DNA from: Siphonodentalium dalli
Taxonomy: Eukaryota > Mollusca > Scaphopoda > Gadilida > Siphonodentaliidae
Assembly (NCBI GenBank): GCA_032622095.1
Contig: CP136069.1
Location: 63,844,819-63,908,818 of the forward strand
Length of the DNA stretch: 64,000 nucleotides
Direction of reading: 5' to 3'
Shown: one piece after another, positions 14,301 through 64,000 of the stretch
Layout: the number at the start of each line of letters is the position of its first letter
How positions within the stretch are numbered: position 1 is the stretch's first letter
The notes under the pieces: generated by a model
What the model saw: the letters and a program-made list of their open reading frames with translations, nothing else
Databases searched by the model: none
What the model was told of the DNA's origin: nothing
Translations under genes and position numbers: made by a program

Positions 14301-17300
14301 ATAAAATAAAATCACCATCTAGCAATTCATGTTTTTGCATAAAAACACCAACCCTGTTGAATCAAGTTGAAAGGTACTCAATCCGATTAAATATCCCTAA
14401 ATTACTATTTCTTTGGCTTCAGGGGTAAAAATTATTTGATTCAAGTCGAGGAACCTATCCTTAAAAGCTCAGAGTGATCACAGCAAATGTTTATAAAATT
14501 AACAGTTAGGACAGCTGGTGAGGACGTGAAATTTTTATATTTTATGCATAACTCGGCCAAGCTTTTTCTTCTCCGCAAGATTATATTTATGTTTAAATGG
14601 AGCCCCACGCTGCCACAGTAAAAAATGTGTATTCCGGTAACCACATGGTGCATCCCCCCTAATAATGAGATAATCCTGCTGAAAACGTGCGCAAACGTCA
14701 TGGATACACGGCTTAATCGTAAACCGATGATTCCACTTTTAACGGAATGCGGGGGGATGTGTATTCTGGAAGAACATGGTGCGTCCCCTGATAATGAGAT
14801 AATCCTAGCAACCACGTGCGCGAAAGTAATATATACTGGCTTACAAGTCGGATGCGGCCACTTTCAAATGAATGTGGGGAGGTAAACACCTGGCTCGCCC
14901 TGCTATGTTTATTTGTGGGAATTCCTCTCAAGCGAGTGACGTATTTACTATAATAACTCATTCGGCAAACCTCGTCAGATTCCGTCACGGCCCGCAGAGG
15001 TCACAGGTCGAGGAGTTCAGAATGTATAATAACTGTCAAACTTTGATAATTATTCAATAAACCCGATGATATTATATACCTGTCTGCAATTGGGAATTTG
15101 GTGGTTGAAAATTGGGAATAAAGGTGCCTTTTTCCCATTGGGAATGGGGCCGTTTACCGGACCCTGAGGACACCTAAAAACATCCCTGGATCAGATATCG
15201 ATTTTTGAAGTTTGTTATTTCAATTGTTTGTGGCCCAGGAACATGCCGGCAAACGAATGGTCTCGGTGAAAATTGTGGATGAAGATGGATAACTCTAAAA
15301 CAAGTGGTAATATGGCAGATTTCGTGAATACTCAAGTGATAATAGTGTCATATTTCATTGAACAAAATGTTGATAAATAACACGTTTTGGGAAATTTGAT
15401 ACCATAGTTGACAGTGGTTAGCATTATTTTGTTGCAATTAATCGATTCCAATAACTAAAGCGTATTTTGAAGAAATGTTGTTGTATCTTGATGAAATGGG
15501 GACCCTCTGATCAGATTGAGTACCTTTAATACTGGTTTTCATTTAGAGACGAAGGTCAAATAATACGAATGAAGTTTCCATGTCTTTATAATCATTAATA
15601 TTTTATCTACACAACTTCTATTTTAAATCTGTGGGTTTGATATTAAGAGTAAATGTAATGGAAATCAGTCCTGATTCAGTGTATTGCCCATGTTTAGCAT
15701 CATTGGTAAACATGGGACTAAAATAAATATTTTATATATAACTAACTGCCTCCTCAAAAAAATTATTTGAAATAAATAAAAAATTAAAATACATGGAAAT
15801 ATTGTCCAAGTAAGTTCCATATCTCACTTAGGAGTGTGTGAGTATTGTTCAAGTCTGCAAATAATGTGCCTGTTATTAGCAGAATGAGGTGTACAGTAAT
15901 GCCCTAAATAATCGACTCCTTAACCACAGCAGAATTATGGATAGTTTTTCATGATTTAGTCGGAAATATGGCTTGTTGCCATTCATCAGAAAGCTCTCAG
16001 TGAGAGCTTTCTGATGAATGGCAACAAGCCATATTTCCGACTAAATCCTGAAAAATTACCCATAATTCTGCTGTGGTTAAGGAGTCGATTATTTAGGGCA
16101 TTGCTGTAGTTCTCCCAAAGCAGTTGAGGCCTAAGAAAGGAATTTGTCACTAAATTCACCCTCTGGGGACCTAATATTCTGCAAAAGACACTCATGATAC
16201 ACTTTTTGCAGGCTTGGTATTGGGTGAGAAAGAATTCAATATCTCCTTTTGTTATTTCCTTAATACCAACTTATATACTGGTATATAAAAAAGGTTCAAA
16301 ATAATGTATTGTGTGATTGCGTAAGGCCAATATAAATAAATTGCTAGATTTACATCCAACTCTTTAAAAAAATGGGGCGGGAGGGAACATATTTTATTTG
16401 ATACATTTTATTTCTTCCTAACATAAATGGTTATAGTCATTTCTAGAAATTGAAGCAGTATCCTAACTTATATAATACAGGGTGGTTTAGATTGTCAAGT
16501 TGATCAAAATTGACAGATTAATGTGACATTGAATCGTAATTTGACATTTAAATAAAGCATAAAAAAAAGTTCACATCAAAATTATCCAAATAAAAATAAA
16601 ATTGAGGAGGGGCTTAAATACGGTCGGGAGGGGATGTAAAGCTAGTAATTTGTTTATATTGGCCTAAGCAGTAATTAACCCTTTCAGTGCCAAGTCGGAT
16701 TTTTGTATCAACCCATATTTCCTTGATCATTTTTCAAATTTATTGATTATAATAATGTGATACATTGATGGAAAGAGCTCTAAGAGCTCTTTCCATTAAT
16801 GTATCACATTATTATAATCAATAAATTTGAAAAATGATCAAGGAAATATGGGTTGATACAAAAATTGTACTTGGCACTGAAAGGGTTAAGGTAGGAAGAG
16901 GGTATAACTATAATATTACTCACATATTGTAACTTTATCATCTTTGGTTGTGGCGGCGAACACGGCATAGGTTGCGTTAGTTGTAGTTGAGGTAGGTATA
17001 GGAGTTGCAGGTGCGACAGTAGTCGGCTTGACTGGAGGTTTACCAAAGAACAGGGTCTCAGCTGGACCTGGATTCCATGGCGGCAATGTAATAACCTGAA
17101 TCGAAAGGTACATAGATGTTATACACTCAAATCAGATTCCAAGGCGGCAATTTAATAACCTGAATCGAAAGGTACATAGATGTTATACGATCAAAAACCT
17201 TTTTTACACTTAAAGGCCGACTTAATTTTCGAGTCACTGATTATTATTTTTTATAGTGCCTTGATATACGGTTTTAATACAATCTATGCCATAAAATATG

Positions 17301-20300: not shown

Positions 20301-23300
20301 TTAATAAATAATATGGTAGTGGCTAACCGTTATTAAAATATAAACAAATAATTTTTGTAACATTCTATTGATGCGATTGTAGGCATGATCTTTTCTTGGT
20401 ACAAGTACAATAAAGAATGTTATATATAGCAAATCAAAATCTTTATAAGAAGTTGCAAAATGGATACATTTACAGTGTTGGCTCAGATGCTTCACAACCG
20501 TATACCACAGTATTGCGCGCTCTGGGGTTGCATGGCGACAGAAAATATAGTCCCCTATTTGCCTCTTTGTTTTTGTGTCTATTTTCGTTATTGCAATGAA
20601 ATTCGACAAGAATTTAAAAAAATGAACAAAGCAATCATTTTACATTGTCTGGTGTTGGTGTCACACCAGAGCTGTTAAGTTCCACGGATTGTCCGTGAGA
20701 CTCACGGATTTCCACGGCAATTCCGCAAACACGGATAACCCCCAATTTCTCACGGATTCGTCAAAACCCCACATTGAAAATCCCAAAACGAAGTTTTTTT
20801 TATTTTTTAAATTCGTGCATTTGCGGGAATTCCCCAAATGACAGTGACTTCCTTATTTCCGGTACCGTAAATACCCACACTGGCCACACATTAACATTCA
20901 CAGAATGTATCGTCGGTAACTTTTGATTGAAGGCTCAATTTGTGGTGAACTGTGACTGATATTAATTGATTTTCACACTCTGGTGAAGCCACACGTATGG
21001 AGGGTGTTGTTTTAGTAAACAATAAGTATAATCACAAGTGTGCAAAGTTCTGGATTGTTAGGCCTCATTGATGAACATTTCTTAGTAACGGATTAGTGGC
21101 ATGCATTGCAAACGAAATAAAACAATACGTTTAATCACAAGTGTGCAGCTGTATTGTGAGGCCTCATTGATGAACATAAGTAATGGATACTTTATGATTT
21201 AAGTTCACTGATAGTGGTATGCATTGAGAACGGAATGTGTCTTTTATTTTGCGGGTAAAACTTTTAAGACGGGTCATTTTGTACTTTCGGTTTCACGCAT
21301 ACATGTCCGGTTGTAACCTGTGTAACTCGGATTCGTTTTGACTAACTTTAAACAAAGTTTCTGCTTCTTAAAATTTGTTAATAAATGGTGGAATGTGTGC
21401 ATTTCTTTTGTGGGTTAAACCGTAAGATGAGTCCATTTTGTCGTTTATTACGATGTTGTACTTTCGGTTTCGCGCATATCCGGCTGTTTCCGGTTGAATT
21501 CTGAGTATTTTTACGAAGTGTGATCTGCTTCTTTCTTTTTAATAAATGGTGGTATCTCCCACACAGAGCAGCTCTATTACAATTACCAACAGGACATTCA
21601 TTGCCATTTTATTTAGGTCTATATATTTATAAAATAGAAACTCATAAAAATTATGCAATCTTCATCATAAAAATTATTTTTGGAACATGAACATATTTGG
21701 GCATACCTCCCGCAAAAATCTCACGGATTGACATTTTCAAAACTTAACAGGTCTGTGTCACACACAACTTTTTGAAATAGAATTAATTCGCCTGAATCAA
21801 TGTAAAAGATGCATGATCATTTTGTTGGGGTTTCATGTGATATAAACTAGACACTGTATAATTGGTGAATACTGTTATTATGCTAGCTAGGGTATCAAGC
21901 TATGGTGATGGTGTAATATGTTCTGTATAAGCTTCTTTCCAAACTGTACATTATTTACCAACTATGTTTAAATTTTCAGTCGTTTCATATTATATGCATT
22001 TGGAAAAGTTGTACCTTGACTAATGACCACATAAAAATTAAGTTGCAAATTAAATATTTTTGACATCTTTCAAAGAATGTTTCTAGTTGAGCCACCATAA
22101 GGAGAGTTAATTCTGCGAATTGGTCACACATTCTTATAAGAAGTTTTGTTTACCACTGTTTACAGATTTTTCTGACGATATCAAGGCACCTCTGAAAACC
22201 TTTGTCTCAAGTTGAATATTGGCATAACACATATATTTGTATACAAAATTCACCACAAATACACAGAAAGACAAAAGACACACAAAACAAGACAACAAGA
22301 CAGATACTAACTGTGATGAGACAATGTTATATGAATAGTAAATGCATAAAATAACTGAGATACAAATAAAATGGACATGCAAACATGCCCTAATGATTTA
22401 GTGTTAGTTTTGATAGAGAGGAATATGAATTTCAACTTCTATTTATCATATGACACTATTATGTGTCATTTTCGTACGAAACGAAAAACAGCAGAATGGT
22501 TAAACTAAGATATTATGCTTCAAAAAATTTGCATGGCTGTGACGCTTCACAATGTTACGAAACACCAATCTCTACCAGAGCACACCAGTCATACTTCCTT
22601 TCTGACTGTCACCGACTGGGTACTGGTCTGTGGTTTTCTATATTTAGCACGGGTTTTTTCAGCCAAAAGTCAAATTTCCTATGTGCTTTGACAATAATTC
22701 ACGCATTAAAATCTAATTGACATAATGGAGCATTAGAGCAGTAGTTGTTGACAATTTTCGTAGCAAAACTGCAGCAAATTAGAACTCTTGTGTTTTGATT
22801 GCCATGCATGTTGTCGTCCATGTGCGTATCCACTTTTGTGTTCATAAAATAATTGGAGAACCAAATCAAACCGTTTTGCAATATAGTTCTTGAGTTCAAG
22901 AGGGACTTTCCAAACTTAAGGAATGAAATTACACAAATTTTGTTCGATATTGTGTGTGCTTAATAAGGGCAACATGTATATTAATATTGTGGAAGTCCAC
23001 CAGATGCGGGTAAAATATCGCCAGTAGCAGCAGTCTTACTGAGTCATCAAGGGAGGTAAACACTGCATGGAGTTTGAAGGAACACAAGCAACACATCCAC
23101 ACAGGAATCATAGTTCTGAGTTTCAAGTCTAGTTATGAGCTTCGCATATATAAGAGAATACATTAGCCTAACAATAATTACCTTGACATTGTAAGCCAGT
23201 GCATTCTCTTATATATGATAGGTGGATCTTTAATGCTGCACCAACGCAACTCCCATCATTAAAGGGTTAAGGCAACTTTCAATATGTATGATTATCTATG

Positions 23301-26300
23301 GACATCCTTACACCAAAATGAATTTTAAGAATTGGAGCATTTGCAGGCGACAACATTAACAAATTGGTGCAAAATCAATGACGTGTCATTAATCTATAAT
23401 ATGCTTATGAACGGTTATGAAACAATCTGTGTTCTGACTTGATGAATTTACTCTGTGTTTTTTGCGAATGGCATGTTACCAAGACCGATCACCCAGAACA
23501 TTCAAACACAGAGAATTGGCCTGGTAACGCTGTGATGTCATGTTCGTGGGTTTGGATTTTCACTCTCCGACACACGGGGAGTGAAAATAGTAACGCACGA
23601 ACATGTTCTTGTCCTGGTCTTGTCTTTGAAACATCACCCGTGAGTTGGGTCTTGCTGTTCTACTGTTCGTGAACGCACAAGAATGTGATTTGAATACATC
23701 CGCAATGGGGCAATACAGAAATGGCAGTCAACATTATACAATCATATTTTTCAAGAGAAAATTTTGATGTGCTAAAATAAAATATTATTAAAGCCAGGCT
23801 TATGAAGTCTAAACTATTCTTAGTAGCAAGAATATCCGTCCAGATCATATATAAGATGTAAATAGATAGAATGACACAAGTGTGTGAACTGGTTAACATT
23901 ATTGCATGAGCTTGTTGTGAGGCAATTGTGCGACAAAAACCATGGCACGACAAATGAATGTAATAACATTAACATGTGGTGTTCTATATTTATTGAACAC
24001 CCAGAAGATTGTAGCTTGTAATACTGAAATGTAGGTCAATATTACTTCACTTAATTGAACAAACAAGTGTTTTTTGAGACTATGTCTCATAATTAACATT
24101 TTCTGTTACAGGTGATGTCATCCAGAACATTGTCAACGTAATAGGTTTGTACTGCCCAAGGCAAGACAGATTTTTTTCATTGAATTTTTTTTAACTTTCT
24201 GTATTTTGCTGACAAAAAAAATAAAGATAGATGGGTGTGCAATAAATGCCTATTCTAATTTAATGTAAGCTGAAATATTAATGCATCTCGTACCTTCCTG
24301 AGGAAAAAATAGTATGAATTTAGTAAGGCTGGAAAATAGTAATGTCCCCAATTGCTGAGTCACCCAGATAAGTTTCTGATGTCTCAAGCTGCTCTATAAC
24401 TATAGGTTATTCAGGCATGTAATAAAGTATAGGCCCATCAGGAAGCCGGAGTTTCACACCCAACACATTAATGCTTGCCGCATTAAAACTGATACTAAAA
24501 GATTAAAATTTAAACTTGGAACAAATCATCGATCTATCAAAACCAGTGTATGTAAGTCGCATAGGCCAAGAACAAAATATGGATTTTAGACTACTCAAAT
24601 CTAATACCAGGACCAAAATTGTATTAAATTTGTCTGAAGTGTGACGTCTTTTTCAATTAGATTTCACTTAGACGCACCACTTTTAACATAATGTTCTGGC
24701 TCGTAAAATTATTATGCCATTTGTATCCATTGAATTTCTGGAATCGGAAACGGAATAATGAGCGACTATCCATGGAAAACATATGTAGTGTTATCTTAAC
24801 TGAAACAATATTAGCTTTGTGCTCTGATTTTTTTAAATTTTAATCGTAAAAATGATCTAGTCCCATAAAAGTTGCATAGCGACAACAATTTAGATTTTCT
24901 TCCATAATCCACATGTGCAATTTTTATGTAATCCAATTTTAACTGGCAGATTCAAAACAATCTCAAATTTACCAAAAAATATAAGAAACAAAACACCTTT
25001 TGTCAGCACTATATCGACAAGTTTGTTTGGAAATTAAGTATACATAATTTTGGGGTTCAAATGAGCCATGTCCATTTAAAATGAGTATATTGGGTGTAAA
25101 ACTCAATGCTTATCCCGTTACATGTCAAGCGAGTCCAGCTTTTCGATGTACAGACCTTAGTGTCATTCAGAGTATTGATCTAGATAGAGAGGAAACACAT
25201 CAGTATAATAGGCTACAAACAATACAGAAACATTATACATACAGTAATGCCCTAAATAATCGACTCCATAACCACAGCAGAATTATGGGTAACTTTTCAG
25301 GATTTAGTCGGAAATATGGCTTGTTGCCATTCATCGGAAAGCTCTCACTGAGAGCTTTCCGATGAATGGCAACAAGCCATATTTCCGACTAAATCCTGAA
25401 AAGTTACCCATAATTCTGCTGTGGTTAAGGAGTCGATTATTTAGGGCATTACTGTATAAGGCAATGTAAACTTTCCATTTCTCAGGCCCATGTGTATGGT
25501 CCCAAAACCCTGCGCATACAACCCTTTTATTCATGTTCAATCTGTTGCGAAAAGTCTTAACCCTTCCATGACTGGAGCTTCCTGAAATTTTGCAAAAACC
25601 CTGTGCCAATGCATTCTCTCTTATATATGCGGGTCTCCCATAGGGAGCCTTGCTTATATCAGAGTATACATTGGCCTAACAATATTCACTTTGACATTGT
25701 AAGGCAGTGCATTCTCTTATATAAGCGAGGCTCCCTATGGGAGACTTGCATATATAAGAGAATGCACTGGCATAAGATCTTTAATGCTGCTCCCATCATG
25801 AACCCTGTCATGAAAGGTTAAAAGTGGTGGAGTTATGATTATGAACCAGATCACATGACCCGTACAATTCAATCACTAACCAATAGCTAATTGTGAAAGA
25901 TATAATTGAAGACTCTGGGTATTATATAATCCAATAGGGCACATTAGTGACTCTGAGAATAATATATATCAACTAAAAGAATGCATGGGTATTCAAAAAA
26001 ATTATTCGATAGTGGATGATTAGTCACAGTTTCCTTCAACTTACAAGCTTGTGATTTCGGTCTAAATGCTGTTTTACATCGAATATCTGTTCCATTACTC
26101 TCCTATAACAGAGTTTATATTTGATGTGCTCATTTTAAAATTACTAATGCCATTGTTAGAATGTCACTATATCCATGTAAGTGGTATATTCCATAGAAGA
26201 TATAATATTTGTTCTAAACTCTGCACAAACTGTCAAATAAAATGGGAATATACTAGTAACAAGAAAAAAAAACACTTTATAAATAATCATATTGTTTACA

Positions 26301-29300
26301 ATAATTTGGAAGAATTTTACCAACTTAAACAAACTTGATTACTTCTACTAACACAGCAAAATCTATATATATTTTACATAAAATCTAATTTACAATGGAT
26401 GGAAAATATTAAACAAGAGTCTGCTATTGGAGAATATTGGAATGGATCTTAGACTTAAACCAACATCTATAACAACCGATCTCACACTAGCTACTTGTAG
26501 TTCAGGTAAAAGAAAACTTGGACTAATAGCTATATTTTGTGGATGTACAATAATAAGCTGAAAGAAAAGTATATTAACAATTAACAGATCTATTTGTGAA
26601 TGCAGTGTAAAGGTGCATCAGACTAGTGTAATAAGCTACGTGTAAAACTAGACCTCAGAATGCACAACTCCCATAATAACTACTCATACACTTTAGGTGC
26701 TGAAATTCTAAGCCAAGTCATTATTTTTGCGGTTCACGAACAAAATTAAACAATTACTGAGGTTTCTGCAGGTTCATGCCATCGGTTGTAAATGGAAACT
26801 AAAGATGTATTCAGGGCTCTTGATTCCCCCAACATCATCTCTCATAATAAACCTCTTAACCCTTTAATGACAGGCGCTGCGCTGGTGTAGCATTATAGAT
26901 CCTGTGCCAGTGAATTCTCTTATATATGCTAGTCTCCCATATACAAGAGAGTGCACTGGCTTACAATTAAGGTCAAGATAAATATTGTTAGGCCAATGCC
27001 TTCTCGTATATATATGAGGCAGACTTGCATAAATAAGAGAATGCATTGGCACAGGGTTTTTGCAAAATTTCATGAAGCTCCAGTCACGAAAGGGTTAACT
27101 GCTGGCTGACATCATGATGATGTGTTCTGGGCAATTGACATTATGGTCATATTGCAGTAGAAAAATAAACAGGAAAATCGCGAAAAACTGACTCCATGCA
27201 AAGGCTATTATCACAAATAATCCTGCAACATCATACACTGTTTATAACATCGAACTGAACTTTTTCAGCCTGCAGCAAATACTAATTATGATTTGGCAGA
27301 TCGAGTTATTGTTTCCATATTCACAAATCTTCTCAAACATTATAGTGTATTAAATTGAGCGATACAAAATATTTGTGCTTTATGTCATCTAACAAGTTGG
27401 AAACCTGAATACATCTTTAAGGTAACACTAAAATTGTTTCCCATTCAATAGAAAGAGAGATATGTTTATATATATATGTCCACTTAATTTTCGAATCACC
27501 AGATCACATTATATACAACATATTCCATATTATATATTATTTAAAAGAGCGATCTCCAAAACATTGTGTTATCAGCTTATCCGGTAAATTAAACTGTGAA
27601 CATGTTATTTTTGTCAAGGTTCCATGTGTTCTGTTTATTATTCTCATTGGAAGGGGAATAACTCTATATATTAGTTGTGATGGTGATGGTCTTTTCTACA
27701 AGCTTCACAGACAACGTCTACACTGAAAATAAAGAAGACAATGCACCTTAACCCTTTACCCAACAGAAGGGCCCTGTGCCAATACATTCTCTTATATATG
27801 CGAATCGACCATAGGTCGCCTCGCATATATAAGAGAATGCATTGGCTTAACACATTAAAAATTATAAAATTGTTAAAAAATGTAAGAAAAAATGGTAAAA
27901 AGTGTTAAAAAAAGATTTTTTTTAGGCCAATGCATTCTCTTATATATGCGAGGCGACCTATGGTCGACTCGCATATATAAGAGAATGCATTGGCACAGGG
28001 CTAACTGTAACTATCACAATGTGGTCAAGGAGCCGGTTCCAATGATATCCATATTTGTATGGTTCTATTGAGACAGACCGAAGATATTTTAGGCTGTTGA
28101 AGCTTTATTTGGCCGGTTTGTTGGGTAAAGGGTTAACTAATCGGGACTATCTCAACACTATGTGAATATCCCTCCAGTATATTTCAGCCAACAATAATTA
28201 CATTCATGACAATTTCATGGATTTGTCAAGATGACCATACACATATCTTAGTAATGTAGGCCAAATCGGCTGCATTAGTAATTTATGCATCGGGCCCTGG
28301 TGCTATTTTTAGCACAGCAAAAATAACAAAGTTTAATTACAAAATTTCCGCTAATAAATAATAATTAGGAAGTAACTCGATGTTTCTGTTTAATGACAAC
28401 GTATTGGCACAAATAAAATAAGGATTTAATAAGCGGAAATATATAATTAAAACATTTTGAAGAAGAACTATTTTTGATTTGTCGTCCACCTCGATATATA
28501 TAGCTTATCACACATATATTTTTAGATATCATGTTATACATATATTGTTTTAAAACTTTGACTCTGTTTTTATGGAAAAAATCATGTTAAAGTTATCCAT
28601 CATCAAAATAAAAACAGAGTCCATTCGGGAATCAATCTTCTAGAGTTTTACTATCTCCACCGGGGTCAGGTTCATAAATATATATATGTAGTAATGGGGC
28701 AAATGGCACTCCTCGAAGGCGGTTCTCTTGCAAGAGGAGGTATCTATGAAGAAGGTAAAGGTGTGAGTTATGATGCATTCTGGGGTAAATAACGGGGGAA
28801 GTCTTGTTGTGAATCTGAGAATCTCTATCTGTCGGTGGACACTCCTAGGCCACAGATGTTCCATATTCTGGTGGAATTCATATATTTTCGGTTCCTCTTC
28901 CAAATGGCTTATACATGTAATATGGAATACTTTGTGTATATGTGATCTGGGCATTCAAAATTAAATAGGCCTTTACCAAAGACCAGACTTTGCCAAGAAT
29001 GGAAATATAGTATTAAAATTTTATTTTTCATGAAACCATATGCGCATATGTGTTATATATGTAATGTAAAAGAACAAAATTCATGGCACTTAGAAGATGC
29101 GAATTCAGGAACAAAGCTTGATAAGTTGTAAAAATGCCTAATGCTTTAACATGAACAAAGCTGTGAAACTCTTCACAAAATTCAATACAGGCTAATATCT
29201 AGAAAGTCAGAGATTTGATGGTTGATTGACTTGCAATGAAATACTAAAATACTCCGAAGTAATACAGATTATTGTCCTGCAGAAACCCAATGGTCAAATC

Positions 29301-32300: not shown

Positions 32301-35300
32301 TTACGGCACACTCAAAATTAATTCTCAGGTTGCTGTCTTTCACTAAGATGTAATTATAATCCTCATTTCTTGTTTGAACAAGAAGCGCATACGAGGAGGT
32401 TAAAAGGAGATTTTGTTGTGGAAATCAGAAAAAGAGTTGAACTGCACACCAAAATCAACATTTGCTGGTGTTTTCAAAGAATCTGTCTCAAATTAATCAA
32501 TTTATTTGAGGTGTTAGCATGCACAAGTTTAGTCTTATTATTAAACAAATAAAAATAACAGCATTATTGAGTCACATTATTATTTAAATTTACTGCTAAC
32601 AATAACAATTGTTCAATATTGGAACACTGTATCAGAAATAGTTTAGCGGTATGCAGCCAATCCGAATAAAAGAAAGTCACGGGAGATAATTATTTGAAAA
32701 TAGTTAATATACATGTATATTGGTGGATTATCACAAAAATATCCACACTACTGGAACCTCAATATCATGTCAATCTTCATAGGTGTCCTGTACAGATATA
32801 TAACTTTCGGTTTCTAAAGCCACAGAAATCAAATTGATTCGGAAACAGCAAAGCTATTGCACTATTTTAAAAATATATGTTTCAAAGAAAAAAATTCATA
32901 TCAGAATCTAAATGCAAAAATATTTTGTAACAAACCGATTACATTTGAAATATGAAAGTAAGAGCAAGCAGTGATTAAATTGACAGATATGACATTAAAC
33001 AAGAACGTTGGACAATAACATCAGGAAACATATTCAAGATCATTACGATCTTAGTTGTTTATACATGTACATTTATAATGAGTATTTAAATGTGAATGTG
33101 TAAATAAAGCTATTGAAAAGTTAATGAAAACAATGTAAATATCGATTTCGAACCAATCGAACTAGATTTCATTTGATATAAGGTAAAACATAAATTGGAA
33201 AAGTCAATATCTCTATAAATAAATTCATAAACAACACTTTTCCACCAAAGCATCATGTGCAGACTCTTTGTTAATAGGTTCACAAAATTTGCAAGTTGAA
33301 TTGATATAAACTGTGGATAAAGAGGTCATTCTCACAATGCACCCCCTCACATTTCTAACCAGCTTTTCATATTCATAGACACGAGTGAGCGATATGGCAA
33401 TCATTGATGGTATAAATACTAAAATTGACGATCTACATGTAGTAACCTATTATTTGTAACTAAATCTAAACACACGTGTGTGACTGTTGCGATCAATTAG
33501 TTTGCTCCAACCAACAAGGTTTCACACGAGATTGCGCCGTCATTACTCCTGAAGAAAATAAGCTAGTAGCGGTGTCAGAATAAAACTCGTAATATATATT
33601 CATCGAATTTCAACATGCCATCGACCCGGAACAATATGTATATATCTATTGTATAATATTTCTATATGTCTATTGTTTATATAATTCTATATCTCAATAT
33701 CCTTATGTTATACATGTATTAACTTGGATGAGAGAATAAAGCATAAAGACCTAAAGGAGATCCCTTTGGAGTTTTGATGGCTAATAAGACCTTTTTAGCA
33801 TGGGGTTTCTACCAAAAACCTCACATGTCATTATATTATATTTCATTCTATTGTATTGCTAGCTAGATTACATCATAGCTGAAAATAATGGATGCCACCA
33901 TTTTTGACGCAAGCATAACTAGCAGTTTCATTTAGATCATGATAACGAGATTTGATCAAAAAGGTGACAGTCAATGTACACGACCATAAAAGATAGCTGT
34001 AATGAAAAATGATTAATTAACTACAAATCAGTGCCTTGCAACATGATCCCTTCACTAAATCTGTGTGTGCACTTTTCCCTTTAGTGTGAAAGATATAAAG
34101 ATATAAATAATGTGTGCTTTTGTTAAGACCAATAACCCTTGATTATTATGTTAGTAAACATTGATGATGTGTGTTAGTAAAGTGAACATTCACTAATGTT
34201 CTGATTATAAGTAGTCATGATTAATAGATCACATTAATCAATAATATATTGTACCCATACCTCTGAAAACAATGGTTAGGAATATCACAATTCATGTCAA
34301 TGATATTAACCCTTTGAGTGCCAGGTCTGATTTTTGTATCAACCCATATACCCTGAGCCAATGCATTCTCTTATATATGCGAGTCGACCATAGGTCGCCT
34401 CGCATATATAAGAGAATGCATTGGCCTAACAATTTTTCATCATTTGTTATTATTTTTTACAATTTTTTACAATTTTAATAATTTTTTAAATATCTAAAAA
34501 AAAAAAAAAATTTACACATCGTAAATTAGGGCCGATGAGATCGGCCCGCGGCACTCAAAGGGTTAAATTAAAATTGAAAAATAATTCATCACTGGGCACC
34601 AGTTTGGTTCCCTTATTAGTTGCCAATTTATTACATGAAAAAAAGGACCCAAAATATAGTCTAGAATGTTATCTTGATATGGAGAGTAATCTAAAATTCT
34701 ATATAGCATGTCGTACGAAACATATTTAACAGACTCGCACCCACTGACATAATTATGGAACATTATGGTCCAATTTTTGCCTGGTGGATTATTACAATAC
34801 ATGCTAAGAGAGTGAACAATCATTAGTAGTCATTCCGCTGACTCTATATTAACATAACACGGAGTATAATACATTGAGTGATGACTTACAGTTAGAATGT
34901 GTTGATTTGTGTAACGTTCATACTGAACAAAGTGGCTCTTCCCATCATTGTACGTCTGTTTAGTTCTCATGCGAGCTGAAATATATTAAAACAGTGAGGA
35001 AATAACAAATAAACCAGTTTGGCACATAATTAATTCAACTATCCTCCTGGTGTCAAAATAGGGGCCTGCGAATATTCGAGATTCGATTTAATGTCGATAT
35101 TGCTGCTATGATTCGGTGTCGGTTGGCCGATTCGAATATTCAATTTGTCTCTATCATTGGCACTACATTAAACATTTTGCTTTGGGTCATAATGAAATAT
35201 AGGAGCGATGCATTGGCAATATTTGTCGTAATTGTGTTATCGGGATTGATACAGATCATATAGGTAATTTTCTACAAATTATGTCTATTTAAGCACTTTT

Positions 35301-38300: not shown

Positions 38301-41300
38301 CTGGTTAACGTTATTGCATGACTTTATTGTGATGCGATGGTAAAACGAGAACCATAGGTTCGAGTTTTACCTCACGGCATGACAAATGAGTGCAACAATG
38401 TTAACATGTTCATACAACAGTGTTGTTCTATGCTTATTGCACATACTGAAGATTTCAGCTTGTAGTATACTGAAATTTAAGTCAATATTAATTTATTTAA
38501 TTTAACAAACTTGTGATTTATTTAGACTATACCTCATGATTTAATGAATAAATTTTCTGTTACAGTTGACGTCGTCAACGTTATAGGTTTCTATTGTCCA
38601 AGGACAAGGCAAAAAACTAATTTTGTTGCACATTTTAAAATCTTTTGTATTTTGCAGTATTTCGCACCAATGGGTGTGTAATAAATACATGTAAACTGCC
38701 AAGTGACATTTCTGAAGTTGGTAGCATATCTATGGTTGCCACATGATGCCATTTTATTTTTATTTTATTTTTAGTTCTACTTCATGAAGTACTATGAAAC
38801 ATGCTATACTAATGCCCTAAATAATCGACTCCTTAACCACAGCAGAATTATGGGTAATTTTTCAGGATATTTGGTCGGAAATATGGCTTGTTGCCATTCA
38901 CCGGAAAGCTCTCACTGAGAGCTTTCCGATGAATGGCAACAAGCCATATTTCCTGAAAAATTACCCATAATTCTGCTGTGGTTAATGAGTCGATTATTTA
39001 GGGCATACACTGTAACTCGATCCAGTTATAAAATCATTTTCATTATAATTACCATCTTGTTTGAATCGTTCATAGAGCACATGAGTGTATTGGCACTAAT
39101 CCATGGCTCAAATTCATTTATTTGTTGCATATATTCTGTTGATTATAATAGGAGATGGTCAAATAAATGGCCTGAATTAGTGTACCATACCCCTTTAAAA
39201 CTGAGCAAAAAATATTCTGTGCAAATTTAAATAAGAGTAAAGGTAGTTTTCTATGTCTCTAATATCCTACACTGTTCCCAAAGTACTGAATGAAAGGTGA
39301 AATAATCTAAAGCTCAATACAAACAAATAATTATTTGGTGAAATTAATTAAGAAAGAAAGTACCCTTGCAAAAAGAAATCCAAGCTTTTTTAAAGTAGTT
39401 CAGAAATCCTAGGAATTCATAAGATTTCCAAGGTTTGAACCAAGCTTTGTGAATGGAAAAATATACCCTTCATCAAAGTTTGGAAATCCTTGGTTGGAAA
39501 TTTATCAAAACCTTGGTAAAGCAAAATAAAGCTTGGATCTTAACTTTACCAAGGTTTACCAAGGTTGTCACATTCAAGTGGAACCTTGGAAAAGCTTGGA
39601 AATTCTTGACTCAAGGTCAACCAAACCTTGCTAAAGCTTAGTAAATCTTGGATCAAAGTTTTACCAAGCTTTACCAAGGTTTTCACATGAATCTTTGGAA
39701 AACCTGGGTTGTTGAGAGTTACATTGACAAACCTTGGAAAAGCTTGGTAAACCTTAGTTGCAAGTCACATGACTGTGCATACATCACTGTTGTCTGTGGA
39801 AGACATTATGAATCAACTGTTGCACTGAGTTTAAATCCATGTTTTATCACAACAATCTTCAGGTAAGTTATTGCTTGTGTGGCCCTAATGTTTTCTATTT
39901 GACTCATAGAATATGGTTGTAGTGATATTTTTATTTATGATATTATTTTAACAATTATTTTACCATTTCCAAGAATAACCTTCAGGACCACTATCTACCA
40001 TTTCATTCCAAAGCTTGTCTCTATCATTATTTATTCATAGCTAATTTATCTAATTTAACTGTTTTATTACACTCCAAATACCTCAGATCCATAAAAATAT
40101 ACCTGTGAATATTATATCCTATACATTTTACATGGTATATAACTTCATAAGGTACCATTTATCTCAATCTAAATAGAATTAAACAATTCTGACTGAAAAG
40201 GAACTTTGAATGAATAATAGCATGAATGATTATATAGCATTGTTCAAGACTGTTGTAAATTTCTAGAGATTGTAGCTTTAAAGATGATGATATTGTCAAA
40301 GTTGACGTCTTGGTAGTGCCATTTGAGATTTTCACCTTTTAAATACCAAACAATTGCAAAGCTAGGCTGCAACTTTGATAAAGCTAGGCTGCAACCTTGG
40401 TAAAGCTCGATAAAGCTGGGTTTATAACCTCAGTAAAGCTGGGCTGCAACCTTGGTAAAGCTCGGTAAAGCTGGTTTACAACCTTGGTAAAGGTCGTTTA
40501 CAACCTTGGTAAAACTTGGTAAAGCTAGGCTGCAACCTTGGTAAAGCTCAGTAAAGCTGGGTTGCAACCTTGGTAAAGCTTGGTAAAGCTAGGCTGCAAC
40601 CTTGGTAAAGCTCGGTAAAGCTAGGTTGCAGCCTTGGTAAAGCTTGGTAATGCTAGGCTGCAACCTTGGTAAAGCTCGGTAAAGCTAGGATGCAACCTTG
40701 GTAAAGCTCGGTAAAGCTAGGATGCAACCTTGGTAAATCTCGGTAAAGCTAGGTTGCAGCCTTGGTAAAGCTTGGTAAAGCTAGGTTGCAACCTTGGTAA
40801 AGCTTGGTATTAAAAGCTCAGATGCAACCTTGGTAGAGCTCGGTGAAGTTTGACTGCAACCTTGGTAAAGCTTGGAAAAGCTATGATTCAAATTTTATTC
40901 CTTCGATGAGTTCGGTTATATTTGCCAAGGTATTCCAAGGCTTTCCAAACTTGAAATGTTCCAATACCGCCCAAAGGATTTCCAAGGTTTCTGATCCTAG
41001 GATATCCTAGGAATACCAAGGAATTTTCCGAACTATTCCTAGGAATTCCTTGGATATCCTAGCACATTTTGGCAAGGGTGACTTCAAATAATGCTCAATG
41101 TTGTGCCTCCAGTAAGAAATGTTCGTTTTCGGTGAGAGATGGTTTTCAATTCCAATGTTGACACAACATGAGAAATAAAAATAAAGAAAAACCAACACAA
41201 GCGCTCTTAATGTCTATCACAAGCCAGCTTCTTTATGACGAATCTTATGTTGTACAACTTAGAGAAGAGAGAAATATAATTTGAAACGATTTTGTTCAAA

Positions 41301-44300: not shown

Positions 44301-47300
44301 CTAAATTCACCGTCTGGGGACTTCATTCTGCATTTAGTGGGAGGTACACAGAAGGTGCAGGTGTTGTTCATGGATTGTGCAGGGGAATATATCGGAGGGA
44401 AAATATTGGCAGGAGAAAAGGGACCCTAAATAATAATAAGGCAATTTTGAGCCACGAATCAACTGGGGTGTTCTCGAGTTCCACATGGAAAATATAAACA
44501 TATACATGCATTAACCCTTTGAACCCTGGCTCCCCACAACCATCAACGCCCTGACCCTGGGCTCCCAGAGGTATTTTCACTTATTGTAGACTGTGTTCAG
44601 GCATATGGTGCTGTATTGTATGCATTCTCTTCTACCATATTGTTTACACCATTGGAAAGATTATTAAATTCTGAATTCAGCACACCACAATCTATTTCAA
44701 TATCTTAAATCCAGAAAAAGTTATAAAAAATTGAAAACTTATTAGATTTATTATAGAAACTGCCAAAAAATGTTACGTAACGTCACAATCCCAACGTAAA
44801 TACATGACGTCATATGGGCTTTAGCCAAAACAAACTCTGTGTGTTCTCTGAATACCCCACCAATAACTAAAATGTGCGGCATTGTGTGGTCTATTGGCTT
44901 ATGCCATCTTAAAGACAAGATTCTGAACTTTTTTCTCGAATAAATCTATATAGCGTGTACCTTTGTGCAAAAAAATTATGATTTAATGAACTCAGAAGTT
45001 TGTTTATTCTTAAACAAAACTCGTATGACATGTGTTTACATCCGACAATCGTTAGCGCGAATTATATAATTTAGTGGGAATTTCTTCACACACATTGGGA
45101 GATAAATACCACAAGAATACGTCACTAAAGTTTCTATCTATAAATATATATTTTTAGATCTCTTATGAGCCATATAAGGCGATATGACCTAACGCGAAAC
45201 GAGAGGTCACGAGAAGCAATATGGCGGCGCCGTAATTGCAGAAATGTGATGAAATTGAGACTGTATCCGGTTTTTAATCGGCTTATACTGCGTTATGCCA
45301 AACACAACCTCGATAAATTTTGGGCAGCTAAAACAGTTATAATATGAATTTTATGCAACACTATTTTATTTTTCTCAACGTCGATTATTTATCGACATAT
45401 AAAAAATAAAGTGCAACACTGCGACGCCGACGGTAGAACGAGACTACGTCATGGCCGGAAAACCGGCCAGTCGCGTATATATGCAATTACGTTTTGGCCG
45501 GAATACCGACCAGCCGGGTTCAAAGGGTTAAATAAATCGAGACACCATGGTTTCATAAAATCGTGCGGTGTATTTCATCGGATCTTTTTGTCTTTAAGCT
45601 ATTCGGAAAATATGAGTCTTGAGGGCCGGTTTAAATTCTGAAATATCTAGTGTAGTTTTGAGAGAAATGAGGAGTTGGTTCCAAAGAAATGGCCCAGAAA
45701 CCGAAAATGTCTGATCGCCACACGTTTTGAGGTCACCAGGGTTCAGTACAACTTTGCACGCATTTCCAGACCTTAGAGGGCAGTCCGGTTCACATTGTGT
45801 GATCAATTCGGCCAGATAAGATGGACACAATTAGTAACATTTTAAAATTGATCGGATACCTGATGGGTAGCCAATGTATACTTTCAAGAACTGGCGAAAT
45901 GTGATAAAATGGAACACTCTGCACCATCGAAAGTCACACATCAAATTAATGATGATTAGCTACTAGAACGGTGCACTTTTTTATTCAAGTGATAATAATA
46001 AATGACCATTTATGTTGATATACGTTACTGGCTATACGTATATCAGTTTTAGTGATTCCCATCCGTGAACATTTCCATTATCGATGGTCCCATATTTTGG
46101 TTTTTCAATTTGGCCAAAGTTTCTGTAAAATGGCCAAAAGTTCAGAAAAGGTCTAAAAATTGGCCAAAATGATATCTGAGTGGGTTCATGTGAAATAACA
46201 TAAAAGTCTGTAAAACAAGTTTGACTTTGTTCTTATTTTCATTATAACCCTTTCATGAAAGGAGCTGTGCTGGTGCAGCATTAAAGATCATGTGCCAGTA
46301 CATTCTCTTATATATGCAAGGCTCCCTATGCATTTTAACCCCTTCGGGAGCTGCACTCGTGCAACATTAACAATCCTGTGCCAGTGCATTCTCTGATATA
46401 TGCTCCCATAGAGAGCCTCGCATATAAAAGAGAAAGCACTGGCTTACAAGGTCAAGGTAAATATTGTTAGGCCAATGCATTCTCTTTTACATGTGAGGCT
46501 CCCTATGAAAGACTCACATATATAAGAGAATGCATTGGCACAGGGTTTTCACAAAATTTCAGGAAGCTCTAGTCATGAAAGGGTTAATAACTCTCCAATA
46601 ATGAGATCTCACATGTCAAAACCATTGTTATGTAAACATTACTGTTACAGTGGAATTACCAATAAAAGTCCAATTAGTCCAATAGCTACCAAAAAACTTG
46701 ATCATGAACATTGGAAAAGGCCAAAGCACTGAACAATATTCTGAAAATCATATTCAGACTTAAAATATATGGAATTACTACACAATTAGCCATGTTGACA
46801 AATCAAAGTAAGGCGACACCAATTTTTAAGTCTGGTTTACAAACACCTCCTACAACTTTTTTTCCATTTCATGAAAAAAAATAAAACTTTTTTCTCCCAA
46901 ATTTTTTTAACACGCGTACTGATTTTCATGTGCTGTCGCATCCGGTTCTGCTTATGATCATTTACAGATCCATATTTTCATGTATTTCATGACAAGAAAT
47001 GTCTTGTTTGGTTCAGAATTTCATTAAAAAAAAAAAATTCACAATTTTTGTAAAATTTAGGTAAAATTATTTACTTGATATAAATTGGGGAGGGGGGGGG
47101 GACAATTTTTTTTTTCCCCCCCTCCTGCATCTATTTTTTTTCTCCCCACATGTTCGTAAACCAGACTTAAAAATTGGTGTCGCCTAACAATGGTTTCAAT
47201 ACAGAAAACTTTGTTGTTGGAAAACTATCACTAATGAATATAAAAACAAAGTTTTCTATTTCTGTATGTTTTTACAGACTTTTATATTTTTGCACATTCG

Positions 47301-50300
47301 CCCAACAGTGAGTGCCTTGGGCCCCTTTAAGAAAATTTATACTATACTGTTTGCTTACCTGGTGCTAGTAACAAACGCAAGAACCTGTCTCTTTCTAGCG
47401 CCTCTAGATGCACCAACTTTAAATGTGAAGGAGAGCTTCTCGGTCGTCGTCAGCTGAAATTCTTTGTTCTTGTTTACATATCTGTATACAACCACAGTAT
47501 TACCACGGAACTTCCCAGATGGTTCTACAAGAAAACGGTAAAAATTCTGTGTTAACTCATTCTATACTAATTATATTCCCTTAGGAAATGTTCATATAAT
47601 AAGTTGTTTGTTGAACTTATTATCTGAACTTTTCCCACCAATCGATAGGATTCCTTCTGCAACTTAAATTGTCTTGTCTTCTGCTCATAATTCCTGAACA
47701 TCCCTCCAGATGAATAATAGACCATTCCAATGTATATTTTAGTGACTGAGTGGGAGTATCCATTTAGTATAGAAAGGTTTAAAGATTTATCCAGGGTTCC
47801 ACATAAATTTTTATGAAACCTATTTTAGTTCTTATAAAGATCTTAGTGTTTAACCCTTCCAAGACTGGAGCTTCCTGAAATTTTGTGAAAACCCTGTGCC
47901 AATGCATTCTCTTATGTATGCGAGTCTTCCATAGGGAGCCTCACATATATAAGAGAATAATTTGACCAAACAATATTTATCTTGACCTTGTAAGCCAGTG
48001 CAATCCCTTATATATGCGAGGCTCCCAAAGAGAGACTCACATATATAACAGAATGCACTGGAACGGGATCTTTAACTCTTTCGATGCCAAGCTCGCATAA
48101 ATGCGAGTTACCCAGTCGCTGCCAAATACGCATTTATGCGAGTTCGGGGGTGCACCTGGTTTACGGGTCGTAATTATATTGTTTTGTTGCATTACAACGG
48201 GGGTTCATTTATTTTATGTAGAGTGCTGGTGTGCGCTGACAATTTAGAAGAAAGGTCAGTCAAAGTCATGCTACTCCTGAAGTTCTATGAGTACAGTCCG
48301 AGCCAGAATACACCATTGACAAATTAACTTTTGGTGCATGGGATGCGATATATGAGTGGAAAATAAACATCATAATTGACTTGGCGGCCTCCTTTCTGCT
48401 GATCAGTTTAGCGTCCAAAAATTCTGTCGGAATGAGGTCGGTGAAAAATACGGAATAGTAGCCGGAATATGATTAACTGGTGAAGCATTAATTAATGGGA
48501 TAGAACAAAAAACAAACATTTAATCATATATGAATTGAAAAAAATTACCGAAAAACATAAATTAAAGCAAATCCAAGATGGCCGCCAATGGCACGTGACC
48601 CAAAGGCTTTGATCTTGAATGGATCTCCACGTCGGGGCAGGTGATAGGTCATTGTCATATATACCCACATGTGAAGTTTCAACTAAATACACCGATAATT
48701 ACCCGGTAGTCATTGCATTACCCACATATACATAAAATACTTGTATTTACACCCAGAATGCTTGGCACTGGTGAGTATGTCCATGTGGCGGGGTGGCAGC
48801 GAAAGAGTTAATGCTGCACCGTACAGCTCCCGTTATGAAAGGGTTAAACCCTATTTTACAGTCGCTGATACTACAGTCACACTGATAATCTGTGTACTTA
48901 CCGACATTACAATGATCGCCGGCGAAGTCACTGATACTACAGTCACACTGATAATCTGCGTATTTGAAATATTCTTGGCAAGTCCCCTCATTGTAGCAGA
49001 CGGTATTTTTGCATCCAGAGATACAAGCTGGCTCAATATCTGCAGAAGAGAAAATATTTGATCAACATCAGTGTTCACTCTGACCCAAAAGTAGCATGTA
49101 GTCTCAAAAGACAACACACACATATTAAATTTTTGATGAGCTATGGTATTGATGGGTGAGAACACCCAAAGTATACACAACAACTTAACCCTTTACCCAA
49201 CAAACCGGCCAAAACCGGCCAAATAAAGCTTCAACAGCCTAAAATATCTTCGGTCTGTCTCAATAGAACCATACAAATATGGATATCATTGGAACCGGCT
49301 CCTTGACCACATTGTGATAGTTACAGTTATACCCTGTGCCAATGCATTCTCTTATATATGCGAGTCGACCATAGGTCGCCTCGCATATATAAGAGAATGC
49401 ATTGGCCTAAAAAAAATCATTTTTTAACACTTTTTACCATTTTTTCTTACATTCTTTAACAATTTTATAATTTTTAATGTGTTAAGCCAATGCATTCTCT
49501 TATATATGCGAGGCGACCTATGGTCGACTCGCATATATAAGAGAATGCATTGGCACAGGGCCCTTCTGTTGGGTAAAGGGTTAATCAGACGCACATTCAA
49601 ACTGCAGTGAGATTACTGTCTTGTGTGTAACTGCAATTAGCCGCATTCGTGGTAATTAGATCCGTGACAAAGACGGCATGAAACCACCGCCACTGTCTTC
49701 TATGTATGCTGTCTATGTATGCCAGGGGGAATATGCCTTTTTCTCCATTTGACAAGTTATTTTAATCATTTCTATTTATTTTTCTATTTTATTAAAATGG
49801 CTGATGGCAGCACGAACACTGATCAATATCTAAATATATTTAAAACATACTAAATTTAGATTTCAAATTTCAAGATGGCTGCTGGCAGCCATGTTTTTCA
49901 ATGAATTTCGGAAACAATTTATGGCAATGATCTTGAGCTCACCCTGATTATTCATATGAAGTTTGCTGATGATCGGAAGAGGGATGTGCCATGTAGGGTG
50001 TGCCAAATGAAATTTTGATGGACTGACGCCCGTCTGCATGGACACCAACTTGTCAAGTTGAGTTAAAATGGTTAAATTTTGTATGCTGTTGTTGACATAG
50101 TTTATAAGTTTGTATATATTAGATTGGGTTCTGACTAACCTGGATTGGACATGGCTGCTTCCTGTAGCGAGAATATTTTACTGCCGATCTTCAGACCTCG
50201 AACACATCCATACCAATACTGGATGGGCGTGGTCCCAGGTGGGGCTCCTCCAACCCAGACATGGACAAATGGTGTAGGAGCCTCCTTCGTTCTGATTGGA

Positions 50301-53300
50301 TATACTGACTCTATAAAATAAAATAAATAGAGGTTAGTTCAAAGTTCAATGGAATAGAAATAACATCATTTTAAAAGAGCGTCTAGTGATTTGAGGATCA
50401 GTAACACCTGGTAATCACTTGATCAGGTATAAATATGCAAATCAACCGAAATGGGCAAATGTTTTGCAGAACATTATCTCCGTAATAACACACTGACACC
50501 AACTGATAACTCTTTAACCCTTTCACTAAAAAGTACTCATTGATGAGCAGATATCCCTTAGGATATGTTCAGTTAATAAGTTTGTAGAATAGGACTCCTT
50601 CTGCACTTCTATTAACCCTTTACCCAACAAACCGGCCAAAAACGCCCAAATAAAGCTTCAACAGCCTAAAATATCATCGGTCTGTCTCAATAACACCATA
50701 CAAATATGGATATCATTGGAACTGGTTCATTGACCACATTGTGATGGTTACAGTTATTCCCTGTGCCAATGCATTCTCTTATATATGCGAGTCGACCATA
50801 GGTCGCCTCGCATATATAAGAGAATGCATTGGCCTAAAAAAATCTTTTTTTTAACACTTTTTACCATTTTTCTTACATTCTTTAACAATTTTATAATTTT
50901 TTCTTACATTTAAAAAAAAATTTATAATATTTTTCTACATTCTTTGACAATTTTATCATTTTTAATACGTGTTAAGCCAATGCATTCTCTTATATATGCG
51001 AGGCGACCTATGGTCGACTCGCATATATAAGAGAATGCATTGGCACAGGGCCGTTCTGTTGGGTAAAGGGTTAACAGTCATCCTGAAAACCCCTCCAGAT
51101 GAATAATAGACCATTCCAGTTTATACTTTTATATCTGAGTATAGAACGGGTTGAAAAGTTTTGGACAGTTACATATTTCTTGCATACAGTAATGCCCTAA
51201 ATAATTGACTCCTTAACCACAGCAGAATTATGCGTAACTTTTCAAGATTTAGTCGGAAATATGGCTTGTTGCCATTCATGTGAAAGCTCTCAGTAAAATA
51301 TGGCTTGTTGGCATTCAACTGAGAGCTTTCCGATGAATGGCAACAAGCCATATTTCTGACTAAATCTTGAAAAGTTACCCATAATTCTGATGTGGTTAAG
51401 GAGTCTATTATTTAGAGCATTACTGTATAATGAGAAATTTTTCACTTTAATCAGCTAAAACGTCATTACTCATTACACTAACCTTGACCCTTGAATGGAT
51501 GTTGTTTGTATTTATTCAGCTTCAACCGCTCAACTGGAATCATCTCAAATCTATCATCAACTGATATCCGAGTACCCTCCACTTTAAATGTTTCATCAAT
51601 TATTCTCTCGATAACCAGTTGTTTCCATTCCCCATTATTCAGACCTGCAAATAAAACAAATAGATTGATTTAGTCTGCTCTGCCTACAGTAATGCCCGAA
51701 GTAAATGACCCTTTAACCACAACAGTGACAGCTTTCCGATTAATGGCAGCAAGCCATATTTCCGACTAAATCTTGAAAAATTTCCCATAATTCTGCTGTG
51801 GTTTAGGGTCGATTATTTAGGGCATTACTGTAACTCTGAAGCTAGGCATATATTAGTCTCTTTCCTGGCTCAGACTCTCCACTCACTGCTCTGTGCAACT
51901 CTGAACATAACACTTCTGCCAGCAGAGTCCAGTAAGTGCCACCATATTAGGCCAATAAATAAAAAAATTGTGTTGTCAAGCACTTCCCTCATCACTGAAA
52001 TATTCTTTTAACACGTTGAGTGCCGGAAATCAATTAGTAATCTCGCCAGTTTGCCAAATCGTGGCAAGATAGCTACCCGTAGTAGACCATAATTTGGCTT
52101 CAATGAAGCAAGAATTGGACGACGTCGCGACTTTAGATGACAGAAACGGCGATTGATAGTACTACGAGATAACTCGTAGCCGGCAATGGCGGAAGGAATT
52201 TGGGTATTCCCACCACCAGTGCCAACTACGAGTTATCTCGTAGACACAATTGGACACGTTTGAGCAACAAATATGAAGTAGAATGTAACCCAAACAAGTT
52301 ATTTTGGTGGTCAGCATATTTATGCAGGTGTGTCTGTCCTTGTGGTGGTTATAGCTCGTTATATAGTTATATTATGGCTGATGCACGCTGGAGCAAATTA
52401 CTTATATGAGCATGCATGGCTACAGACGGTGAATCCGATGTGGAATCGGGTGAACTTGTTTCCTGTGAGGATGAGTTTATTTCGTCCATGACTACGAGCA
52501 TGCATCTTCTGTTGTTTCGGGCATTGTAAGTTATCTCCCATATAGCCTGATTTAGGCCTATGCTAGGCCCGGTTCCAAAGTACCGCCCGAAATAATAGTG
52601 TAGGAATAATGGTCAGCACAAAATTAAATCAACGATGCAACAGTAGCCAAATAGATCCCTGTACATTCATGAGTGTGCTACATGTAACGATTCCATATCA
52701 TCCATCCGTCTGGAAATAAGTTACCCTTACCCCAAACCTCTATGCTACACAAAAACATTTATCCGTACATACATGTGGAACAGCTTGATGAACTGCATGA
52801 CGTCTAGAGTACGGTTTTTGTTTTGCTTTCCATTATCCAACACGTTCGGAAGAGGGTACAATGTAGCTTTGGGGAATAGTTCCGCTTTACTTGAATTATA
52901 AATAATAAAATACCTAGCCCCCAAATGGAGCCGCACAGTGTAGGCCTATTCCAAAAACAACTGCTGTGTTCCCTAATAATGAGATAATGGTAGCATCAAC
53001 GTGCGTAACGTCATGGATTATCCGCTTATTTTGTATTGGATGCGTCCAGTCGCACATGCGTGAGAGGGAACATATTTGGCAGGCCTGTGTGACGAGTGTG
53101 GGTGGTTGTGCGAAGTTTCAATGTGTTGAAACACAACGATGTAACCATTCCTCGAAACTGCCTTCGCATGTTTGTACATTGTGAATATCCACCCCCCCCC
53201 TGACTGTGTTTGCAAGCGTGCATGCACATTATCAGTCTATTGAATACCAAAAACCCAGTCCAATTGCCCACACATGACTGCCTCTGGTGGTCACTCAGTG

Positions 53301-63794: not shown

Positions 63795-64000
63795 TTAACC
63801 CTTCCATGACTGGAGCTTCCTGAAATTTTGCAAAAACCCTGTGCCAATGCATTCTCTTATATATGCGAGTCTCCCATGGGGAGCCTCACATATATAAGAG
63901 AATGCATTGGCCTAACAATATTTACCTTGACATGGTAAGCCAGTGCATTCTCTTATATATATATGCTAGTCTCCCATTGGGCGCCTCACATATATAAGAG
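63795..64000. mobile_element. Family B copy cut by the window end
   Basis: It starts TTAACCCTTCCATGACTGGA; the second hairpin is cut at 64000. Confidence 0.82.

Follow-up and report, generated by a model that had tools for sequence, protein, structure and literature searches.

We analyzed a window of 64,000 nucleotides on contig C9 (63,844,819-63,908,818) and searched the 2.23-Gb genome, comprising nine contigs, to which it belongs. At 34306-34566, on the plus strand, lies a 261-bp element of family D, flanked by TTAA on both sides and carrying perfect 17-bp inverted ends, TTAACCCTTTGAGTGCC. Its left outer end module (34306-34350, plus strand), which is common with few differences to a family we call X, is followed by CCCTGA at 34351-34356 and then by a palindromic cassette of 69 bp (34357-34425, plus strand). 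An AT-rich core (34426-34526, plus strand, right boundary approximate) lies 3′ of the cassette, and a right outer end module on the minus strand (34527-34566), which contains the small palindrome GGGCCGATGAGATCGGCCC, closes the element. The arms of the cassette, 33 nt each with 3 nt between them, are 97% complementary, and as single-stranded DNA it is predicted to fold at -35.4 kcal/mol (z = -15.57). The junction in this element reads CCCTGAG, as against the CCCTGTG typical elsewhere.

At ≤3 mismatches, the window contains 62 copies of the cassette arm, CCAATGCATTCTCTTATATA, where 0.03 are expected. These arms fall in 19 elements (12 of family B, four of C and three of D), some of them incomplete or extending past the window edge, in agreement with an earlier note that had described one internal palindrome in about 20 elements with B, C and D ends. 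Genome-wide, the exact arm 20-mer is present 157,092 + 157,108 = 314,200 times and its reversed control 0 times; recurrence of the cassette is real and far beyond chance. Besides the element described above, family D is represented on the plus strand at 56247-56520, where the right end is not recognizable and the end coordinate is approximate, and on the minus strand at 57631-57879, where the left terminus is mutated to TTATCCC. C elements, which carry two cassettes in opposite orientation where D carries one, are found at 6652-7051 and 27748-28136 (plus strand) and at 49185-49584 and 50612-51074 (minus strand). B elements occupy the plus strand at 2577-2760, 3065-3315, 4261-4518, 25557-25821, 47850-48160 (right end lost, end coordinate arbitrary) and 63795-64000 (extending past the window edge), and the minus strand at 1480-1687, 6031-6275, 23060-23270 (right-hand end alone recognized, other boundary arbitrary), 26856-27098, 46244-46587 (with an additional internal arm) and 53965-54197. 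TTAA stands at both ends of the D element at 34306-34566, of all four C elements and of many B elements, with mutated ends in some copies. The elements in the window measure approximately 180-460 bp, are non-coding, have inverted ends and are present in high copy number, the features by which MITEs are recognized. One further element, X1 (16675-16889, no strand assigned), begins with the D outer end, with few differences, and ends likewise, and encloses an unrelated, fully palindromic interior without the cassette.

Several other features accompany these elements. At approximately 8855-8932 a B left end and an opposing end of the TTAACC type are separated by only tens of bases, with no cassette between them, probably a very short B derivative that has lost its interior. 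On the minus strand, exon-like frames at 54802-55158 and 57134-57499 match Laminin_G_2 (E 0.00036, falling slightly short of the curated cut-off) and EGF (E 3.4e-7) and probably belong to an animal adhesion-type gene. A remnant of a DDE_1 (pogo/Tigger-type) transposase is found on the plus strand at 11813-12220 (E 2.3e-12), and tandem repeats occupy 9344-9696 and 40379-40883, with periods of ~51/102 and 32 bp.

We read 90 palindromes from the window and 100 further loci. A T:C mismatch near the center gives each of them a direction: in most, the outward side is CCCTGTG or a near form and the inward side is C/T-TAACA, the outward CCCTGTG being absent from the tandem array at L026 and L027 and from a few damaged copies, such as L058. 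In the typical layout, C and E (a family described below) have two palindromes facing each other across a core, D has one, and B has two with a short spacer. The palindrome had been described as the same in B, C and D. This holds for C and D, which share an identical consensus; B has a distinct version, with a CTCCC/GGGAG center in place of the CGACC/GGTCG of the other families, and its right-hand cassette copy reads CCAGTG/CACTGG. The array at L026 and L027 (C1:541750-544900) repeats the B-type cassette with a 97-bp period and adjoins a 33-bp minisatellite of B left ends (TTAACCTTCCATGACTGGAGTTACCTCC).

Outside the cassette, the families part company. The terminus TTAACCCTTT is common to B, C and D, and beyond it their ends match one another like shuffled sequence: with the first ten bases removed, pairwise scores among the outer ends of B, C, D and E resemble those of shuffles (p 0.26-1.0), which bears out the earlier description of the three families as different on the outside. 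The same comparison finds the two ends of C alike (0/500 shuffles) and the two ends of B alike (p 0.006). The change from one end to another is abrupt and falls at CCCTGTG. Inside this point, C, D and E have one and the same 69-nt cassette consensus, drawn from 18, 44 and 35 copies, of which 14, 27 and 10 equal it. Since the cassettes of C, D and E carry too few differences for trees, we permuted family labels over the 97 cassettes of 69 nt that are gapless and have C, D or E ends; the mean distance is 0.0190 within families and 0.0185 between them, and 698 of 1000 label shuffles reach the difference.

Conservation extends past the palindrome. With one sequence taken per family, and C read from its right-hand cassette, the AT-rich core is common to C, D, E and F against dinucleotide shuffles (z of 8.0 for C-E, 8.6 for C-F and 12.7 for D-long-E, each 0/300 shuffles; 6.1 for D-long against F). 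Reading the core from the other side of C gives no match, as expected for a single oriented core, and the short spacer of B has no detected match to the other cores except a weak one to the right side of E (p 0.043). In D-long and E a second core accompanies the cassette and the AT-rich core. The shared unit, as defined by these alignments, is thus the interior, comprising CCCTGTG, the 69-bp palindrome and the AT-rich core, and the earlier proposal that the cassette alone is shared was too narrow.

Family E came to light among arbitrarily chosen arm sites that we read near the start of contig C1. Its ends, TGTGACCCGCCATATCAAATCCAGTCGTAAGTCGGGATTTTTTTTA, are followed by CCCTGTG and the same palindrome as in C and D, the interior standing behind TGTGACCCGCC ends, and its junctions read TTTA-CCCTGTG...CACAGGG-TAAA. 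TTAA directly flanks 0 of 22 E copies. TA is present on both sides of 13 of the 22, or 11 of 19 after removal of duplicated places; the other 8 of the 19 distinct copies do not have TA on both sides, and the flanks suggest a possible target duplication. The window contains no E end at ≤4 differences. Family F has both outer ends of B, palindromes of the C/D type and a long AT-rich core; one element (L137) was read end to end, and left ends were read in four more (L132, L133, L135 and L136). In L134 and L136, the palindrome centers are half of one version and half of the other. One interior thus stands behind unrelated ends, in C, D and F with TTAA flanks and in E without them.

Exact patterns place the E end with the cassette at 17,622 positions genome-wide, the C end at 40,783 and the D end at 7,951, among 156,886 interior starts (CCCTGTGCCAATGCATTC) in all. 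An end of the form TTAACCCTT lies 11-41 nt before CCCTGTGCCAATGCATTC at 62,042 positions, with B, C and D-type ends among the 100 matches listed. We also surveyed hits to the ends themselves in 219,020 bases, made up of the window, random pieces and piggyBac loci. The cassette adjoins 3/3 E ends, 14/14 C right ends, 13/15 C left ends (one miss at a locus edge, the other a cross-hit to the C right end), 11/12 B left ends, 10/11 B right ends and 5/7 D left ends, the two D misses being both ends of X1.

Most of the copies compared lie near the start of contig C1, a region with segmental duplications, and nine loci were left out as duplicates or re-fetches (L027, L028, L029, L030, L032, L067, L102, L103 and L117). 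In this part of the contig, three pairs of E copies (L101/L102, L037/L103 and L116/L117; C1:1.8-12.5 Mb) have the same flanks in inverted orientation and are segmental inverted duplications. Cassettes at C1:820017-926261 are spaced ~11.2 kb apart, which suggests a long tandem duplication.

Families with a common interior and different ends could descend from one old family, B, C, D and E having kept the interior while their ends diverged. The TTAACCCTTT terminus shared by B, C and D would fit such a history, as would F, which joins the ends of B to a C/D-type cassette, and the half-and-half centers of L134 and L136. We nevertheless consider common descent very improbable. The outer ends score as shuffles do, with an abrupt change at CCCTGTG; TTAA does not flank E; and the end of D also encloses the unrelated interior of X. 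F links B to the other families by combining parts rather than by gradual change of the ends, and the graded ends and intermediate forms that the earlier note had named as evidence for a single family were not seen.

Elements of mixed composition also occur. The second core of E (ACCCATACAGAGCCCC...GGGGCTCCCTGCAGGG) lies behind a D left end at 22 places by exact pattern. Among 13 places with a D left end and an E core that we read, eight have the D right end as well (L119, L120, L121, L123, L125, L128, L129 and L130; on contigs C5, C7, C8 and C9), and six of these eight carry TTAACCCTTT at both ends. Intact TTAA ends at several separate places suggest that this combination has been mobile. The remaining places are less regular. 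In L126, a D left end is joined to a complete E interior from which the last bases of E are missing, and L046, L122, L124 and L127 hold truncated or irregular combinations of D left end and E core. L126 (C8:131416570-131417340) lies between imperfect direct repeats of 20 bp (TCCTGCTRAGATTCTAGTCT) and may have arisen in an aberrant one-ended event. L124 (C7:209855730-209856500) contains a tandem array with diverged E second cores (GAGCCTCC...GGGGCTC), from which the second core looks like a further separate module.

The converse arrangement, one end with different interiors, is found in X. The junction of a D-type end with the foldback interior has 8,904 exact matches genome-wide, and at 10 of 10 places read (L138 and L139 being one duplicated place) TTAA stands at both ends and the centers of the foldback interiors vary in length. 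Long inverted repeats run over most of X, as in foldback elements; inverted cassettes stand on both sides in C and E, and D combines short inverted ends with one cassette. One interior found with different ends, together with one end found with different interiors, argues strongly against gradual divergence, and the structures indicate that ends and interiors have recombined both ways.

This exchange has limits. In a search that misses mutated copies, B outer ends enclosing a C/D center give 11 matches in the genome, of which 4 are C elements nested in B, and free mixing is rejected on these counts; because B ends almost never meet a C/D center, exchange appears to be rare. The earlier proposal that the cassette is exchanged apart from the ends stands in part. 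C, D and E cassettes are undifferentiated by end, and the chimeras and X agree with it; free exchange does not hold, and the cassette on its own is not seen to be mobile.

A related account treats the interior or the cassette as a transposon in its own right, bounded by CCCTGTG...CACAGGG and inserted separately into unrelated MITEs and then carried along with them. The junction falls at CCCTGTG in every family, in C and E a cassette lies at either edge of the interior, and the E junctions would suit a TA target. A transposon of this kind should also be found alone. The form flanked directly by TTAA, TTAACCCTGTGCCAATGC, has 345 matches against the 156,886 of CCCTGTGCCAATGCATTC, not above background, and we reject a TTAA-flanked solo family; all 7 palindromes recovered from 80 kb of random sequence (20 pieces) sit behind B, C, D or E ends. 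Ten places that the patterns left unassigned proved to be four C elements, three D elements (one duplicated place), one E interior with its outer part altered, and two others, L148 and L149, which are copies of one duplicated place with an unrecognized flank and could be a solo copy. The junctions of F and C also lack TA, and we think a nested transposon quite unlikely.

The abundance of the interior behind several end types (156,886 starts) raises another possibility, that the palindrome is kept for its dyad symmetry, which might serve either to form a hairpin or to bind a dimeric protein, of the host or a transposase, that would aid amplification. This reading is compatible with module exchange, and both can be true. 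The B and C/D/E versions differ by compensated pairs at columns 30-40 and 31-39, and at 5-65 in the right-hand copy of B. In an alignment of 28 sequences, 15 of them picked from the B group, double-change cells number 32 against 14.7 and paired cells reach 93.2% against 89.6% (0/500 shuffles each), values that are inflated by related copies, since the shuffles leave relatedness in. These cell counts are suggestive of selection on the hairpin, not proof of it. Five pairs are changed on both sides, a number that 298 of 500 shuffles reach, and columns 8 and 62 fail to pair in 8 of 27 rows. A set of 106 single cassettes contains one pair changed on both sides, with 0.39 expected, and its two letters do not pair; arm-to-arm correction is not seen in these copies and we reject it for them.

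Sites 15-69 of the cassette differ from consensus by 0.3-1.7%, compared with 2-4% for the outer ends of D, E and C-right, a figure to which subfamily structure and the partial selection of D copies for unusual outer ends contribute. We confined this comparison to positions 15-69 because most copies were chosen with exact patterns, in which the first 13-20 nt of the cassette are fixed. D-type ends, moreover, are about equally numerous with the X interior, and within 34200-34700 the best Rfam match scores 40.3 bits against a gathering score of 171, so that no known structured RNA family is recognized there. A functional palindrome is on this evidence a tentative proposal, and we lean against it.

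Which enzymes moved these elements can be approached through their termini. The genome has 128 matches to piggyBac transposase, many in frames of ~600 codons and a few representing halves of one gene, and we read 20 piggyBac loci. One family (L006, L007, L010 and L012) begins exactly at TTAACCCTTT, as do B, C and D, and codes for DDE_Tnp_1_7 (E 4.7e-91 in L006); the first ten bases are all that these elements share with the B, C and D ends. Groups of piggyBac copies, this family and others, are 94-99% identical over ~3 kb with long open frames, and piggyBac may have been active recently in this genome. The arm is present in 0 of the 20 loci at ≤4 mismatches, so the cassette is not supported as part of an autonomous piggyBac. 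Nor did these 20 loci yield an autonomous parent with B, C, D or E ends, inverted TTAA ends around the transposase, or right ends of the piggyBac elements themselves. From their termini and flanks, B, C, D, F and X would have been moved by piggyBac-type enzymes, and E may have been moved by a Tc1/mariner-like enzyme.

We consider it probable, on balance, that these MITEs are assemblies of exchangeable modules, joined by rare template switching and then amplified. Long palindromes provoke breaks. A break arising after excision of an element, or after cleavage of an extruded palindrome, could be repaired by ectopic template switching that copies the interior of another element and so joins it to new ends. 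Each successful combination would then be amplified by a transposase that recognizes its ends, of the piggyBac type for TTAACCCTTT ends and perhaps Tc1/mariner-like for E. Repair-associated template switching would account for the abrupt junctions, the reciprocal combinations and the chimeras; among the copies read, no donor-to-recipient event was seen directly. The palindromic interior might even be a passenger that spreads between transposon superfamilies and is in effect a parasite of MITEs. Its cruciform would cause breaks in or near host MITEs, into which it would be copied during repair, and the interior would outlive any single transposase by switching ends. We regard this stronger proposal as unlikely.

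Names of MITE families usually follow the ends or clusters of whole sequences, and each family is assumed to descend as a unit from a single autonomous parent. Here, a very abundant interior stands behind unrelated ends with apparently different target sites, and one end type encloses two unrelated interiors. If modular exchange of this kind is general, trees of complete MITE sequences would confound separate histories. With tens of thousands of copies in a single genome, whether interiors influence amplification can be tested.

Among known systems, MITE derivatives of piggyBac resemble these elements in TTAA flanks and in termini, TTAACCCTTT being the left end of complete piggyBac elements in this genome; they differ in that the interior described here also occurs in a family, E, without TTAA flanks, and in that none of the 20 loci is an autonomous partner whose ends are those of B, C or D. 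Galileo of Drosophila mojavensis, a foldback-like member of the P superfamily, forms chimeras that combine the inverted repeats of one subfamily with an interior from another, for which the authors invoke ectopic recombination and conversion (PMC3573991). As here, copies combine the ends and interior of different groups. The parts of Galileo, however, all come from one transposon (PMC3573991), whereas our ends cannot be aligned, the flanks are TTAA versus TA, and copies number tens of thousands. MER6 is a Tc1/mariner-type MITE that contains the V domain of SINEs, and thus has a conserved interior domain behind the ends of another kind of mobile element (PMC6887750). There, one MITE took up a retroelement domain; here, several DNA-transposon families in one genome have a palindromic interior. 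The same source portrays the highly conserved central domains of SINEs, in which one domain is joined to varied heads and tails and module exchange has been proposed, similar to one center with different outer parts (PMC6887750). SINEs are retroelements that move through RNA, whereas the present elements have inverted ends, with TTAA flanks in B, C, D, F and X. Whether interiors influence amplification is a question also open for these SINE domains, and the mobility of mPing is reported to depend on internal as well as terminal sequences (PMC9921582). Tetris resembles the present elements as a modular, non-autonomous foldback with internal repeats, which feed tandem arrays and satellites; it shares its ends with the MITE DAIBAM, whereas here the interior is the shared part (PMC4079207). 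Among the matches listed from the open-access literature, judged by title and the opening of the abstract, we recognized no paper on one interior behind ends of different superfamilies. The present case resembles these systems in its workings but joins families with unalignable ends and apparently different target sites, each in thousands of copies, and suggests that the ends and interiors of such elements are mixed and matched, apparently even across different types of target site.
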